A stretch of DNA of 44,860 bases from Eubacteriales bacterium (GTDB taxonomy: Bacteria; Bacillota; Clostridia; Lachnospirales; Lachnospiraceae). This document shows, in pieces, positions 26,541 through 32,940 of this stretch. Position numbers and translations under genes: made by a program. The stretch's first letter is position 1. Each line of letters starts with the position of its first letter. The notes under the pieces are model-generated. The model had not been told where the DNA came from. It did not search any database and worked only from the letters and a program-made list of their open reading frames with translations. Where the stretch lies: contig JAUNDV010000020.1 of NCBI GenBank assembly GCA_030525875.1, positions 1 to 44,860 on the forward strand, in the 5' to 3' direction.

Positions 26541-27329
26541 ATGATTTTTGACACACATGCTCACTATGATGATATAGCTTTTGACAAAGACAGAGATGAA
26601 GTAATAGACAGTCTTTTGAAAAATGGAATAAACAGAGTCTGCAATGTTGGAGCCAGAATAGAAGGATCAAGAAATAGTGTAGAGTTAGCTGATAAGTATG
26701 ATTTCTTTTATGCTGCGGTGGGTATACATCCAGATGACTGCAAAGATATGACTGAAGCTGACATAGATATACTTAGAGAGCTGGCAGGCAATAAAAAGAC
26801 TGTAGCTATAGGTGAGATAGGTCTTGATTATCATGGCTTTGGAGTATATGAAGATAAAGTAGATAAAGAAACACAGAAAAAATGGTTTAAAAGACAGCTC
26901 GAGCTTAGCATGGAGCTTGATAAGCCAGTTATAATACATTCCAGAAATGCTTCTGAGGATACACTCAATATAATGAAAGAAATGCATCAAAAGGGACTTA
27001 AGGATGCTATAATACATTGCTTTTCATATAGTCAGGAAGCTGCAAAGCAGTATGTTGCAATGGGATATTATCTTGGCTTTGGTGGTGTTGTAACATATGA
27101 GGGACAGAGAAAGCTTACAAAGGTTTTACAAGCAGTTCCAATGGACAATATAGTTTTAGAAACTGACTGTCCTTATCTTGCACCTGCACCGCATAGATAT
27201 GAGAGAAATAACTCATCCTATCTTCCGCTTGTAAGGGACAAGATTGCCGAGATCAAGGGAATAAGTCCTGAAGAAGTCGAGGAAAAAAGCTGGATAAACG
27301 GAAACAGGATTTACAGGATCAAAGATTAA
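26541..27329 (+). CDS. tatD: TatD-family metal-dependent deoxyribonuclease
   Basis: The 262-residue TIM-barrel hydrolase has DTHAHYDD (metal-binding HxH), GEIGLDYH, an HSRNA metal/active-site His, and ETDCPYLAP with the catalytic Asp. In Bacillus the counterpart yabD follows metS directly; here traX and lysA lie in between. The ribosome binding site AGAGGAAA precedes the ATG, 18 nt after lysA. Confidence 0.93.
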   Translation: MIFDTHAHYDDIAFDKDRDEVIDSLLKNGINRVCNVGARIEGSRNSVELADKYDFFYAAVGIHPDDCKDMTEADIDILRELAGNKKTVAIGEIGLDYHGFGVYEDKVDKETQKKWFKRQLELSMELDKPVIIHSRNASEDTLNIMKEMHQKGLKDAIIHCFSYSQEAAKQYVAMGYYLGFGGVVTYEGQRKLTKVLQAVPMDNIVLETDCPYLAPAPHRYERNNSSYLPLVRDKIAEIKGISPEEVEEKSWINGNRIYRIKD

Positions 27330-27365: not shown

Positions 27366-27427
27366 TTTACAAATCCTTCTTAAGATATAAATCGTAAACG
27401 AAATAAGTTTAGATATATCTTAGGAGG
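27366..27427 (+). promoter_or_regulatory. pst operon promoter/leader region
   Basis: TTTACA (27366-27371) and TTCTTA (27377-27382) stand 11 bp apart, the spacing expected of Pho-regulon TT(A/T)ACA-type boxes, and TATAAA (27386-27391) may be the -10. TAAGATATA (27381-27389) can pair with TATATCTTA (27414-27422) immediately before the AGGAGG ribosome binding site. PhoP control is an inference from gene content. Confidence 0.4.
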
Positions 27428-27436
27428 ATTTTTATT

Positions 27437-28381
27437 ATGAAAAAAAGAACAGCAATTTTTGCAGCAGCTTTACTTATGATGGGAGCTCTCGCTGGATGTT
27501 CATCAAAGGAAGAAGCGGAAACAACCAGTGCAGCAGCAACACAGGCTGAAACAACAGCAGAAGCTAAGGAAGAAACAGAAGGCGAAACAACTGCATCAAA
27601 AATGGAAGGTGCTATAAACGTAATTTCTAGAGAAGATGGATCTGGAACAAGAGGAGCATTTATAGAGCTCTTTAAGATAGAAGAAAAGAATGAAGCAGGA
27701 GAAAAAGTTGATCTTACAACAGAGGAAGCAGAAATTACAAACTCAACAGCAGTTATGATGACCTCAGTTGCAGGAGATAAGTCATCTATCGGATACATTT
27801 CCCTTGGTTCACTTAATGATACAGTAAAGGCTTTAAGCATAGATGGCGCTGAGGCAAATGTAGACAATATTAAGTCTGGAGATTATAAGGTATCAAGACC
27901 TTTTAACATTGTTACTACAGGAAATGAAAATGAACTTGCACAGGATTATATCAAGTTTATTCTTTCTGAGCAGGGGCAGAAGGTAGTAGAAGAGAACGGA
28001 TATATTTCAAATGGAAACAACGGAAGCTACGAAGCTCAGGGACTTAGTGGAAAGCTTGTAGTTGCAGGTTCATCTTCAGTAACACCTGTAATGGAAAAGC
28101 TTAAGGAGGCATATTCAGCACTTAATCCTGATGTAACAATTGAGATTCAGCAGTCTGATTCAACAACAGGAGTTGCAAATGCACTTGATGGAATCTGTGA
28201 CATTGGAATGGCTTCAAGAGAGTTAAAGGATAGCGAGATTGAAAAGGGTGCAGTAGGAACAGTTATAGCACTTGATGGAATCGCAGTTATCGTAAACAAT
28301 GAAAACCCAACAGAGGAGTTAAGCAGTGAACAGATCAAAGATATCTACACAGGAAATGTTACAGACTGGTCAGAGCTCTAA
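27437..28381 (+). CDS. pstS: Phosphate ABC transporter substrate-binding lipoprotein, lobe-permuted
   Basis: The 314-residue lipoprotein has lipobox LAGC with Cys21 and a Thr/Glu-rich linker (25-55). Residues 59-195 correspond to the usual C-terminal part of PstS (VISREDGSGTRGAF, IGYISLG, FILSEQGQKVV). Residues 205-314 correspond to the usual N-terminal part (VAGSSSVTPVME, DIGMASREL, ALDGIAVIVN, YTGNVTDW). The order of the two segments is thus swapped. Phosphate-contacting stretches from both (SGT, GSSS, ASR) are kept, so the protein should still bind phosphate. The C-terminus ends exactly where normal PstS crosses the hinge. It is the first gene of pstSCAB-phoU. Confidence 0.93.
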   Translation: MKKRTAIFAAALLMMGALAGCSSKEEAETTSAAATQAETTAEAKEETEGETTASKMEGAINVISREDGSGTRGAFIELFKIEEKNEAGEKVDLTTEEAEITNSTAVMMTSVAGDKSSIGYISLGSLNDTVKALSIDGAEANVDNIKSGDYKVSRPFNIVTTGNENELAQDYIKFILSEQGQKVVEENGYISNGNNGSYEAQGLSGKLVVAGSSSVTPVMEKLKEAYSALNPDVTIEIQQSDSTTGVANALDGICDIGMASRELKDSEIEKGAVGTVIALDGIAVIVNNENPTEELSSEQIKDIYTGNVTDWSEL

Positions 28382-29258
28382 TAGATTAAAAATAGTTAAA
28401 GCGAAGGAGAAGGCTGCAAAATGCCTTTTCCTCGTCTTTGCCTGTATGAGCATTTTTCTTACAGCGCTTATATGCATATTTTTATTCAAAAATGGTATAC
28501 CAGCTATTATGAAAATAGGAGTAGATGAATTTCTGCTCGGAACAAAATGGAAGCCGGGAAATAACATATATGGAATATTTCCTATGATTTTAGGATCTAT
28601 ATATGTAACCTTGGGAGCAATGATAGTAGGAATACCTACAGGAATACTTACGGCACTGTACCTTTCATATTTTTGTCCTCAAAGGGCATATAAAGTAGTA
28701 AGGCCGGCAATAGATCTTCTGGCTGGAATTCCTTCCGTAGTATATGGATTCTTTGGACTTGTAGTAATAGTTCCAATAGTAGCAAATCTTACAGCCTCTA
28801 TAGGAGGAAAAGGAAAATCTATTTTCACAGCTTCGCTATTACTTGGAATAATGATTCTTCCTACAATAATAGGTGTTGCACATTCTGCCTTAAATGCAGT
28901 TCCCAAAAGTTATTATGAGGGAAGCCTTGCTCTTGGAGCTACACATGAAAGATCAGTTTTCAGTGTAATGCTTCCAGCTGCAAAGTCAGGTATATTTGCA
29001 GGAGTTATCCTGGGAGCAGGAAGAGCTATTGGAGAGACCATGGCAGTTATCATGGTAGCAGGAAATCAGCCTAGAATGCCGGCTGGTATCTTTAAGGGAA
29101 TAAGAACCATGACAGCAAATATTGTAACTGAAATGGGATATGCTACAGATTTGCACAGAGAAGCGCTTATAGCCACAGGCGTTGTATTATTTATCTTCAT
29201 TTTGATAATAAATCTTAGCTTTTCATATTTTAAACGTAAGTCGGAGAGAGAAGGATGA
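28326..29258 (+). CDS. pstC: Phosphate ABC transporter permease PstC
   Basis: The 310-residue polytopic inner-membrane protein has about six transmembrane helices and the coupling-loop region GATHERSVFSVMLPAAKSGI with the conserved EAA-type Gly. It pairs with PstA to form the channel. The start is uncertain. GTG 28326 has a good AGAGGAG (28312-28318) 7 nt upstream and overlaps pstS by 56 nt. ATG 28356 is the other choice, with a poorly spaced site. It overlaps pstA by 4 nt. Confidence 0.9.
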   Translation: MNRSKISTQEMLQTGQSSNRLKIVKAKEKAAKCLFLVFACMSIFLTALICIFLFKNGIPAIMKIGVDEFLLGTKWKPGNNIYGIFPMILGSIYVTLGAMIVGIPTGILTALYLSYFCPQRAYKVVRPAIDLLAGIPSVVYGFFGLVVIVPIVANLTASIGGKGKSIFTASLLLGIMILPTIIGVAHSALNAVPKSYYEGSLALGATHERSVFSVMLPAAKSGIFAGVILGAGRAIGETMAVIMVAGNQPRMPAGIFKGIRTMTANIVTEMGYATDLHREALIATGVVLFIFILIINLSFSYFKRKSEREG

Positions 29259-30133
29259 TAGTAGAAGCTTATAAACAGGAAAATAAAAAAAATACGAATC
29301 CGTTTGCAGATCAGAGATTTACAAGCCGTATACTATCTATCTTAGTAAGAGCTGCCGCGTTTTTTACAGTATTTATATTAGTATTTATAATTTTATACAT
29401 TTTAGTAAGGGGAGTGCCACATCTTAAATGGAGTCTTTTCGCATGGGAATACAATACAGAAAATGTTTCACTTATGCCGGCTCTTATAAATACGATTACA
29501 ATTACTCTTATTTCTCTGCTTATATCCATACCGATGGGAGTATGCTCTGCTATATATCTGGCCGAATACGCTAAGAAGGGAAGCCGTCTTGTAAAGCTTG
29601 TAAGACTTACAACGGAGACTCTTTCAGGTATACCTTCTATTATCTACGGACTTTTTGGCTTTCTCTTGTTTGTAAGTCAGCTTAAGATGGGCTACTCAAT
29701 AATTGGAGGAGCCTGTACCTTGTCTATCATGGTACTGCCTACGATTATGAGAACAACAGAAGAGGCACTTATGTCAGTTCCGGATCAGTTCAGAGAGGGC
29801 TCTTTTGGACTTGGAGCAGGAAAACTCAGGACGATTTTTTCAATAGTTCTTCCTTCAGCAATACCTGGTATAACATCAGGAGTAATACTTGCCATAGGAA
29901 GAATCGTGGGCGAAACAGCTGCGCTTATATATACAGCTGGAACTGTAGCAGGAATTCCTGAGACAGTAATGGAATCAGGAAGAACTCTTGCTATTCATAT
30001 GTATGTTCTTTCAAATGAAGGACTTTATACTAATGAAGCCTATGCCACAGCAGTTGTACTGCTTGTAATAGTAACATTTATAAATGCGCTGTCTGCTTAT
30101 ATAGCTAAGCGTTTTGGAGGAAAATGTGAATAA
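29255..30133 (+). CDS. pstA: Phosphate ABC transporter permease PstA
   Basis: The 292-residue membrane protein has about six helices. The central [19 protein letters not shown] segment and the loop [20 protein letters not shown] are PstA hallmarks. Overlap with pstC is ATGA (4 nt), and with pstB 8 nt. Ribosome binding site GAAGG. Confidence 0.94.
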
Positions 30134-30878
30134 ATTTGATATCGAAAATTTAAATCTATATTATGGAAATTTTCATGCATTAAAGAATATAAATATGAAT
30201 ATTTCTGAAAATGAAATCACTGCATTTATCGGACCAAGTGGATGTGGTAAGTCAACCTTACTCAAATCCATGAACAGGATGAATGACCTTGTAGAGGGAT
30301 GCAGGATAGAAGGAAAAATGTGCCTTTGTGGTCAGGATATATATGATAAGTCCATGGATGTAAATGATTTAAGGCGAAGCGTTGGAATGGTTTTTCAAAA
30401 ACCAAATCCATTTCCTATGAGTGTATATGACAATATTGCCTATGGACCAAGAACTCATGGTATAAGAAAAAAAGAAGAGCTTGATGAGATAGTAGAAACT
30501 TCATTAAAGCAGGCTGCAATCTGGGATGAACTCAAGGACAGATTAAAGAAATCAGCTCTTGGTCTTTCAGGAGGACAGCAGCAGAGACTTTGTATTGCAA
30601 GAGCACTTGCTGTAGAGCCAGAGGTTCTGCTTATGGATGAACCAACATCAGCGCTTGATCCTATTTCGACTTCAAGAATAGAAGATCTTGTAATAGAGCT
30701 TAAAAATAAATATACAATAGTAATGGTAACTCATAATATGCAGCAGGCAGCAAGAGTATCTGATAAAACAGCATTTTTCTTATTGGGAGAGATGATAGAG
30801 ATGGGTGAAACAGAGAAGCTCTTTGCATTTCCAGCTGACAAGAGAACCGAAGATTATATAACCGGAAGATTTGGCTGA
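30126..30878 (+). CDS. pstB: Phosphate ABC transporter ATP-binding protein
   Basis: The 250-residue ABC ATPase has Walker [11 protein letters not shown]-loop [15 protein letters not shown] (typical of PstB), signature LSGGQQQR and Walker [14 protein letters not shown] chose the GTG at 30126, 5 nt after GGAGG (30116-30120); the TTG at 30114 overlaps that site. It energises phosphate uptake through PstC and PstA. Confidence 0.96.
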
Positions 30879-30896: not shown

Positions 30897-31595
30897 ATGA
30901 TGATGAGAAACAGATTTGACAGACAGCTTGAAGATCTCAATGATATGCTGATTCAAATGGGTTCAATGTGTGAGGATTGTATAAGCAACGTTTCACTTGC
31001 ACTTACAGGTGACAGGGCAGAAACAGTAAAAAGCCCGGTTACAGGCATGAATGAAAGACTTATGGAAAGAGTTTATACTACAGATTCCGGGATTGATCAG
31101 ATGGAGAGGGATATAGAGGCACTTTGCCTTAAGCTCCTTCTTCAGCAGCAACCTGTAGCGAGGGATCTAAGACTTATATCCTCAGCCCTTAAAATGATCT
31201 CAGATATGGAAAGAATCGGAGACCAGTGCTCAGATATAGCAGATATAGTAAAGGTACTTGATAAGACAAATATCAGAGAACTCGAGTCATCCGTTCATAT
31301 TCAGGATATGGCAACAGCAACTATGAAAATGGTTACAAGAGCTGTCGATTCATTTGTATCAAAGGATCTTGTGGCAGCCAGAGGCGTTTCAGCTGCAGAT
31401 GACAATGTTGACGAACTTTTTGATAAAGTAAAAAATGAGATAAGCAGACTTATATCAAAATATCCTGAAAAAGGAACCAGCCTTTTAGACATGCTTATGA
31501 TAGCAAAGTATTTTGAGAGAATCGGTGATCATGCAACTAATATAGCCGAGTGGGTAGAGTTTTCGATAACAGGTGAACATGTCAAAATGAATTAA
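30897..31595 (+). CDS. phoU: Phosphate-signalling regulator PhoU
   Basis: The 232-residue protein has two PhoU three-helix repeats (about residues 17-105 and 120-215). The metal-binding ERIGDQCSDIAD motif appears once in each (second copy ERIGDHATNIAE). It dampens Pho signalling and Pst activity when phosphate is plentiful. The start could be the first, second or third of three consecutive ATGs; AGGGGA fits the first or second. No phoPR two-component pair is in the window. Confidence 0.94.
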   Translation: MMMRNRFDRQLEDLNDMLIQMGSMCEDCISNVSLALTGDRAETVKSPVTGMNERLMERVYTTDSGIDQMERDIEALCLKLLLQQQPVARDLRLISSALKMISDMERIGDQCSDIADIVKVLDKTNIRELESSVHIQDMATATMKMVTRAVDSFVSKDLVAARGVSAADDNVDELFDKVKNEISRLISKYPEKGTSLLDMLMIAKYFERIGDHATNIAEWVEFSITGEHVKMN

Positions 31596-31629: not shown

Positions 31630-31635
31630 TAAGTT

Positions 31636-31895
31636 TACGCAGCCGGGGAGATAGCGGTGCCCTGTATCTGCAATCCGCTTTAGCAGAGGTGATATCCTGC
31701 CTAGGGTATTTCATCGCATAGCAGCCCTTTAAGTCAGGTGTTGAAGACGGGGTCCTGCGCAATAGGAATCTGTGAACCGTGTCAGGGTAGGAATACAGCA
31801 GCACTAAGCAGAACCTCTTATGTGCCGTAGGGGTGCCTTGTCCGAGCCGGGCGAGAAGGAAACGTGTGTCTTGATTATTCGAAGCAGGATGCGTA
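31636..31895 (+). ncRNA. ffs: Signal recognition particle RNA, large bacterial type
   Basis: The 5' part holds the Alu-domain blocks GGTGCCCTGTATCTGCAATC and CCGCTTTAGCAGAGG seen in clostridial SRP RNAs. The S-domain has GTGAACCGTGTCAGG, a GTA-GGAA-TAC helix 8 tip with the GGAA tetraloop, then CAGCAGCACTAAGCAG. TACGCA near the 5' end can pair with TGCGTA (31890-31895), giving a closed molecule of about 260 nt, close to the 271 nt scRNA of Bacillus. Ends are approximate. It has its own promoter and terminator. In Bacillus it lies between tadA and dnaX; here it is between phoU and ksgA. Confidence 0.93.
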
Positions 31896-31928
31896 TTTAT
31901 AATTTAATACAGCAGATATATGTATACA

Positions 31929-32085: not shown

Positions 32086-32940
32086 ATGGAAAAATACAAG
32101 AAGCTTATAAATCCGCAGAATACTATAGAGCTTGTTAAGAAGAATGAATTTACATTTAAGAAGAGATTTGGACAAAATTTTCTTATAGATGAGCATGTTT
32201 TAAATAAGATAATGGATGGAGCTGAGATAACAAAAGAAGATTCAGTTCTTGAGATAGGTCCTGGAATCGGAACTATGACTCAGGCACTTTGTGAAAGGGC
32301 AGGAGATGTAACAGCTGTTGAAATAGACAGAGATCTTATACCTATACTTAATGAAACACTTTCACCTTTTGACAATGTCAAAGTAATAAATGAAGATGTA
32401 CTTAAGCTCGATCTTAATAGTATTTCTGATAAACCGCTTAAGGTAGTTGCTAATCTTCCGTACTATATAACAACGCCTATAGTTATGGAGCTGTTTGAAA
32501 GTGGCGCAAAGCTTGAATCAGTTACAGTAATGGTTCAAAAGGAGGTTGCCGACAGAATGCAGGCTATTCCTGGCGGAAAGGATTACGGAGCGCTTTCTCT
32601 TGCAGTGCAGTATTATGCTGAGGCAAAGGTAATAGCAAATGTCCCTCCAAACTGCTTTATTCCAAGACCTGGGGTAGGGTCAGCAGTAATAAATCTTAAA
32701 TGTCATAAGATAAAGCCTGTATGCCCCAAAAATGAAGAGCATATGTTCAGACTTATAAAGGCCGCTTTTGCGCAGAGAAGAAAGACTCTTCTAAATGCCC
32801 TGAAAAATGAAAGCTCACTTGGCCTTTCCAAAGAAAGGATACAGGAGGTATTTTCAGAGCTTGGAATGGACGAAAGGATAAGAGGTGAAAAGCTGTCATT
32901 AGCTGACTTCGCAGCTCTTTCGGACAAAATTTTAAAATAA
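32086..32940 (+). CDS. rsmA: 16S rRNA (adenine1518/1519-N6,N6)-dimethyltransferase
   Basis: The 284-residue enzyme (KsgA) dimethylates two adjacent adenines in the 3' hairpin of 16S rRNA. Motifs visible are FGQNFLID, the SAM-binding LEIGPGIGTMT, and the catalytic NLPYY. C-terminal FIPRPGVGSAVI and FAQRRKTLLNAL are also diagnostic. The ribosome binding site AGAGGAT is 8 nt upstream. Its likely partner gene in Bacillus, rnmV, is absent here. The upstream gap is occupied by SRP RNA. Confidence 0.96.
   Translation: MEKYKKLINPQNTIELVKKNEFTFKKRFGQNFLIDEHVLNKIMDGAEITKEDSVLEIGPGIGTMTQALCERAGDVTAVEIDRDLIPILNETLSPFDNVKVINEDVLKLDLNSISDKPLKVVANLPYYITTPIVMELFESGAKLESVTVMVQKEVADRMQAIPGGKDYGALSLAVQYYAEAKVIANVPPNCFIPRPGVGSAVINLKCHKIKPVCPKNEEHMFRLIKAAFAQRRKTLLNALKNESSLGLSKERIQEVFSELGMDERIRGEKLSLADFAALSDKILK

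Follow-up and report, generated by a model that had tools for sequence, protein, structure and literature searches.

The pst operon and the order of the PstS halves

In this study, we analysed a stretch of 44,860 nucleotides from a Eubacteriales bacterium of the Lachnospiraceae (assembly GCA_030525875.1, contig JAUNDV010000020.1, positions 1 to 44,860), which is called the window below. It carries a pst operon between tatD and ksgA, in which the gene of the phosphate-binding protein PstS is linked to pstC, pstA, pstB, and phoU (Table 1). The two halves of this PstS stand in swapped order: the part with SREDGSGTR, which forms the core of lobe II and then returns to lobe I, comes first, and the part with GSSS, ASR, ALDGIAVIVN, and W comes second. 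We consider that a circularly permuted, lipid-anchored PstS with its own permease partners, which displaced an ordinary operon in place, very probably provides the best joint explanation of what we observed here, namely the half order, its breadth among relatives, the fold match, the conserved site residues, the operon, the co-segregation with the permease, and the mosaic kinship of the locus.

Table 1. Features of the pst locus (feature, window position, strand, basis or description; ORF, open reading frame; aa, amino acids; SRP, signal recognition particle)
permuted pstS	27437..28381	+	314-aa lipoprotein ORF; signal peptide with lipobox LAGC, Cys21
ribosome-binding site of pstS, AGGAGG	27422..27427	+	read in sequence
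residues 59-195, second half of ordinary PstS	27611..28021	+	PF12849 132-266, TIGR02136 164-294
linker, residues 196-204, ordinary C-terminus to ordinary N-terminus	28022..28048	+	gap between the two profile matches
residues 205-314, first half of ordinary PstS	28049..28378	+	PF12849 10-125, TIGR02136 41-154
pstC permease	28326..29258	+	permuted-type PstC lineage
pstA permease	29255..30133	+	permuted-type PstA lineage
pstB ATPase	30114..30878	+	groups with permuted loci (7-row set, support 97); small identity gap
phoU	30897..31595	+	clusters with congeners rather than with permuted loci
tatD, upstream flank common to congeners	26541..27329	+	
bacterial large SRP RNA between phoU and ksgA	31635..31896	+	Rfam RF01854, 168 bits
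ksgA, downstream flank common to congeners	32086..32940	+	

The half boundaries given in the earlier note (residues 59-195 and 205-314) proved correct in the PF12849, TIGR02136, and PDB alignments, and each half is significant when aligned alone. PF12849 scored PstS at 124.2 bits (cut-off 27) with the halves in the reverse of the profile order, where residues 200-313 matched profile positions 5-125 and the first half by itself (window 27608-28030) matched 132-266; searched singly, the second and first halves gave E 9.7e-25 and 3.3e-11, respectively. TIGR02136 (length 295) also matched the two halves in swapped order, with E-values of 1.1e-30 for the second half and 4.9e-27 for the first. The full TIGR02136 score of 187.9 bits is below the curated cut-off of 206.6 because the halves are swapped; the halves alone scored 106.8 and 94.9. 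All canonical controls (10/10) were above 206.6 bits, and the E-value estimated to correspond to this cut-off (5e-61) was reached by 2 of the 62 permuted proteins. Since profile searches split the permuted PstS, few members reach the cut-off of the PstS model.

The structures show the same order. Canonical 4gd5 aligned as two swapped pieces (query 194-314 to chain 27-146, query 59-187 to chain 152-273), as did 4q8r and 1twy. On the other hand, 4h1x was co-linear in one piece (query 55-313 to chain 6-263, E 1.2e-65). When a model of the window's PstS was compared by VIA-align, canonical PstS structures matched it with one half at a time, and 4H1X matched it in both fold and chain order. In these comparisons, residues 52-192 corresponded to 1twy 136-276 and residues 201-314 to 9l8j 2-116. 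The circular permutation proposed in the earlier note was thus borne out by the profile and PDB alignments, by the relatives described below, and by the end-to-end fit to the solved 4h1x.

The earlier note had also placed the end of the protein at the hinge crossing, which is wrong. R65 aligned with Arg125 of 4Q8R, which corresponds to Pro169 of CpPstS, and the second domain of CpPstS is given as 112-278 (PMC12421899); therefore, the chain ends (60 and 314) map inside lobe II. On this alignment, both new termini would be located in lobe II, where the chain is cut between the helix that follows the conserved W and the strand leading to R-x-x-G-S-G-T-R, and the lipid anchor would be carried by lobe II, not lobe I. 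In the model, the hinge crossings may correspond to the long strands 153-160 and 273-286, and the chain would run from lobe II to lobe I and back to lobe II, compared with lobe I, lobe II, and lobe I in ordinary PstS. The short linker joins what are the C- and N-termini of canonical PstS, and both the fold and the phosphate site between the lobes match the canonical ones. The linker measured 10-12 aa between the model envelopes in 89/89 permuted representatives, and the distance from the last W to the C-terminus was 4 or 5 residues in 124 of 139 permuted ORFs.

Cys21 was invariant in 62 aligned permuted proteins, and the lipobox pattern was found in 132 of the 139 permuted ORFs, a count made after excluding the copies of the window (L001, L002, and L083). 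By eye, the misses comprised an ordinary lipobox located past the region scanned (L007 and L073), a variant lipobox (L082, L151, and L166), an apparently ordinary signal peptide (L075), and the truncated second copy of L150. Within the operon, pstC appears to start with GTG at 28326, and GAGGAG is located 7 nt upstream; the ribosome-binding site and the first codons of pstC would thus lie inside the coding end of pstS (window 28313-28381; 56-bp overlap).

Relatives and origin of the permutation

A contig scan found at least 517 stretches encoding a relative, and the best 80 all (80/80) contained a permuted ORF. At the fetched loci, 176 PstS ORFs comprised 142 permuted, 34 ordinary, and 0 mixed ones; when copies were merged, 124 permuted and 32 ordinary ORFs were left (156 distinct). 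The next recognised gene, defined by a match to a gene of the window, with the possibility of an unrecognised gene in between, was pstC after 113 of the 124 permuted PstS, another permuted PstS after 4, and none after 7; in L150, the next recognised permuted PstS was not directly adjacent. In the window's own family, sampled at about one genome per genus, permuted PstS occurred in at least 50 of 150 genomes and in 88 of 299 genomes of a second, overlapping sample (E 1e-40), and a phylum-wide draw gave at least 10 of 299; the first and the last of these are hand counts of one-piece matches longer than 200 residues. Beyond the phylum, a plasmid collection and the PDB were covered. The expectation that similar proteins occur in other Lachnospiraceae was right but too narrow, as permuted PstS is also present in Monoglobus, in Streptococcus pneumoniae (4h1x), and on a complete plasmid of Treponema saccharophilum, where the gene stands with pstCAB-phoU and its annotation goes no further than a substrate-binding domain protein. 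Both of the annotated plasmid copies that were inspected carry a generic name.

Considering that the window lies on a single contig of a 36-contig assembly, the order could in principle come from an assembly or rearrangement artefact, in which two pieces of a normal pstS ended up in the wrong order. We rejected this on the relatives and the crystal structure, and its probability is negligible: all 80 kept loci share the order, complete chromosomes among them, the linker is nearly constant, and the complete Treponema plasmid and the crystallised 4h1x have the same order.

Some further PstS-like genes were observed at these loci. A second permuted PstS gene adjoins a histidine kinase/response regulator pair in L155 (2235-3149), and another, a truncated copy, adjoins a RelA/SpoT-domain gene in L150 (6487-7164). 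The congener locus L185 (1222-3327) encodes a large lipoprotein with a PstS-like domain in canonical order followed by WG repeats (PF12849 and PF14903), and weak matches to large ORFs were also found in G460, G450, G452, and G455.

The permutation probably had a single origin and was then carried with its own PstC and PstA (and PstB) partners. In a careful 59-row PstS tree, whose bootstrap had not settled, 25 of the 26 permuted rows, including the window and 4h1x, formed a clade (98/94), and a single clade for all permuted rows was not rejected (p-AU 0.445, approximately unbiased test). A quick tree of 124 rows placed all 90 permuted rows on one side of a branch with support 71, and the C-half tree gave one permuted clade with support 96. 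When the PstS order was mapped on the partner trees, one change was required for PstC, PstA, and PstB and six for PhoU, and the branch separating permuted from ordinary loci had support 95 (PstC), 98 (PstA), and 78 (PstB). Accordingly, the permuted receptor travels with its own permease lineage, and PhoU is exchanged. These trees had a defined scope: L147 and L148 (second copies of canonical loci) were left out of the PstS trees, and L160 (very long branch) was left out of the 59-row tree and the PstC, PstA, and PstB branch-support trees. For the partner proteins, loci with both or neither order were left out, and permuted rows were limited to 70 in the PhoU tree and the order-mapping trees and thinned to about one third in the branch-support trees.

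Several points weigh against a single origin with co-travelling permeases. L092, a divergent permuted protein on a long branch, stood among the ordinary rows of the 59-row tree, which may reflect a second origin, and one origin was recovered in 35% of the bootstrap trees. The N-half tree requires four changes, although it is poorly resolved. L146, the same locus as L092 (genome G145), fell on the permuted side in the PstC and PstA trees, but on long branches, and no starred set includes the window's PstC or PstA in their trees. Even so, we consider it unlikely that the permutation arose more than once and the permuted proteins fall into more than one family, considering the clade of 25 rows, the C-half clade, and the PstC and PstA trees, which place all permuted loci on one side, together with the nearly constant linker length and distance from W to the C-terminus.

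As for the route, duplication followed by trimming is plausible because pstS is found in tandem pairs of either order. Such pairs precede a single pst operon in L014, L023, and L156 (permuted) and in L143 (ordinary), and they prove no particular route. No fused duplication intermediate was found among the 176 PstS ORFs (156 distinct). Long open frames in G198, G090, and G412 were tried as fused intermediates and turned out to be separate canonical ORFs.

Kinship of the operon within the genus

Among 25 genomes of the genus, 15 had a canonical PstS at the fetched loci, and the permuted form was found in the window's genome only; the remaining nine gave a fragment (1), weak matches to other proteins (4), or no match (4). 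In two congeners, G464 and G462, a canonical operon occupies the site of the window's operon (metG-traX-tatD-[pst]-ksgA), and the canonical operon of other congeners is located elsewhere. On the one hand, the identity of the window to G464 and G462 was 46-49% and 33-34% for the two PstS halves, 45-46% for PstC, and 43-44% for PstA; the corresponding maxima against permuted loci of other genera were 79% and 77%, 75%, and 74%. On the other hand, PhoU was 64-65% identical to that of the two congeners (61% at most to the permuted loci), TatD 71%, and KsgA 63-65%. PstB was 72-75% identical to these congeners and at most 82% to permuted loci. In the PhoU tree, the window grouped with G464 and G462 at 95, and with a third congener in addition at 98.

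The simplest reading of these identities is an in-place replacement of pstSCA(B) that left phoU behind. The permuted pstSCA(B) probably arrived by horizontal transfer, and the incoming operon would have displaced the ordinary one between tatD and phoU, with the native phoU retained. We infer the direction of this displacement, and it could have been the opposite. Two other observations argue against replacement: PhoU of the congener operons at other sites is 43-56% identical, less than the best permuted loci, and PstB separates poorly (71-76% for congeners, 71-82% for permuted loci), so that PstB alone is insufficient to reveal the displacement. If the permuted operon were ancestral in the genus and the congeners had acquired the ordinary one, the tatD-ksgA site would likewise hold a pst operon of either kind, as it does. 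We regard this history as improbable, since 15 ordinary PstS stand against one permuted among the 25 genomes, and the window's phoU resembles those of the two same-site congeners while its pstS, pstC, and pstA do not. A congener-like phoU beside non-congener pstS, pstC, and pstA fits a replacement in the window's lineage.

Phosphate binding, known systems, and significance

In terms of the phosphate site, R65, S69, G70, T71, S212, S214, D280, and W311 were invariant in the 62 permuted proteins, and Arg125 of 4Q8R, the counterpart of R65, is named as a phosphate contact (PMC12421899). SP_2084, the protein of 4h1x, is described as part of the pneumococcal phosphate transporter Pst1 (PMC6722419); expression of the Pst1 operon is reported to rise more than 100-fold at low phosphate via PnpRS, and the encapsulated pneumococcus requires either Pst1 or Pst2 (PMC4913102). 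By analogy with PstS and from its operon, the window's protein would capture phosphate and hand it to PstCAB.

A divergent permuted branch stands outside the pst operon. In L149, L151, L152, and L154, permuted PstS lipoproteins without pstC are located directly upstream of NptA-type genes, which encode a Na_Pi_cotrans (PF02690) and a PhoU domain. When a profile of these four was searched against 299 genomes, 9 of the best 12 matches (L207-L218) had an NptA-type gene directly adjacent on the same strand (L207-L213, L216, and L217), with the receptor first in 7 and the symporter first in 2; four of these were the query loci and five were new. The other 3 had no NptA gene on either side in the fetched flanks, and no pstC was found near any of the 12 in these flanks (about 1.5 kb). 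Na_Pi_cotrans genes occur in 287 of the 299 genomes, but with only a few copies per genome, chance is an unlikely explanation for this proximity in nine genera, by estimate rather than computation. It is possible, though we hold it only tentatively, that permuted PstS is a separate receptor lineage of which one branch left the ATP-binding cassette (ABC) transporter for a secondary Na+/phosphate symporter. If the receptor and NptA do cooperate, they would form a binding-protein-dependent phosphate symporter. Separately, in G420, G441, G335, G471, G480, G492, G537, and G521, a Na_Pi_cotrans match shares contig and strand with the match to permuted pst, at a distance of about 3-14 kb. Linkage to an NptA gene may therefore be frequent for the permuted ABC operon as well.

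This branch, together with the score below the curated TIGR02136 cut-off, could indicate that the window's protein has a PstS-like fold with another function, as a sensor or as a binder of another oxyanion. We consider this very unlikely. The low score is due to the half order, the site residues are invariant, pstCAB-phoU lies directly downstream, no second PF12849 locus was found in the window's genome (1.83 Mb, 97.75% complete), and SP_2084 belongs to the Pst1 system with its response to low phosphate. The pneumococcus has a second Pst system (PMC4913102), whereas a single PF12849 locus was found in the window's genome.

A close relative of solved structure, 4H1X, is SP_2084 of Streptococcus pneumoniae TIGR4, was released in 2012, and belongs to the same clade as the window's PstS. 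Its naming is ambiguous: PMC6722419 assigns SP_2084 to Pst1 as its PstS, the PDB calls it PstS 2, and the name PstS2 denotes SP_1400 in PMC11075461. The title of the PDB entry makes no mention of permutation, 4H1X is not mentioned in the open-licence PMC literature searched, and the string 'permut' is absent from the searched text of PMC4913102 and PMC12421899. SP_2084 is mentioned in ten open papers, and other matches in this literature concerned phages, a prophage, a lake virome, biosensors, and imaging tools. Despite the crystal structure, the order of the permuted PstS lineage is apparently undescribed in the open literature searched.

Canonical PstS (4GD5, 4Q8R, and 1TWY) shares homologous halves, site motifs, and operon partners with the window's PstS, but has the opposite half order and termini in lobe I, whereas those of the window's protein map to lobe II. 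The glycine-betaine-binding protein OpuAC of Bacillus subtilis (2B4M and 2B4L) differs, with 11% identity, a root-mean-square deviation of 4.0-4.7 Å, and another ligand. In its published description, MglB-2 of Treponema pallidum (Tp0684, 'Cluster Bc') is likewise a naturally permuted, lipid-anchored binding protein, but it is of type I, binds glucose, and has another break and an extra hinge crossing; its permutation was proposed as an adaptation to tethering (PMC4990184). The window's protein has a PstS fold with, by our mapping, two hinge crossings. A TpMglB-type protein was absent from the VIA-align rows, which carries no weight against this likeness.

The tethering idea could apply to the window's PstS, in which the moved anchor may have an effect. 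However, PstS of Gram-positive bacteria is a lipoprotein in either order, and therefore tethering alone does not explain the permutation. As an alternative, the branch support in the PstC, PstA, and PstB trees suggests a receptor that is matched to a particular permease lineage.

In summary, the permuted PstS represents a natural experiment, in which the fold and the site are unchanged, the membrane anchor would be on the other lobe, and the receptor has its own permease lineage. In the window's genome, this form is found where congeners keep the ordinary one.
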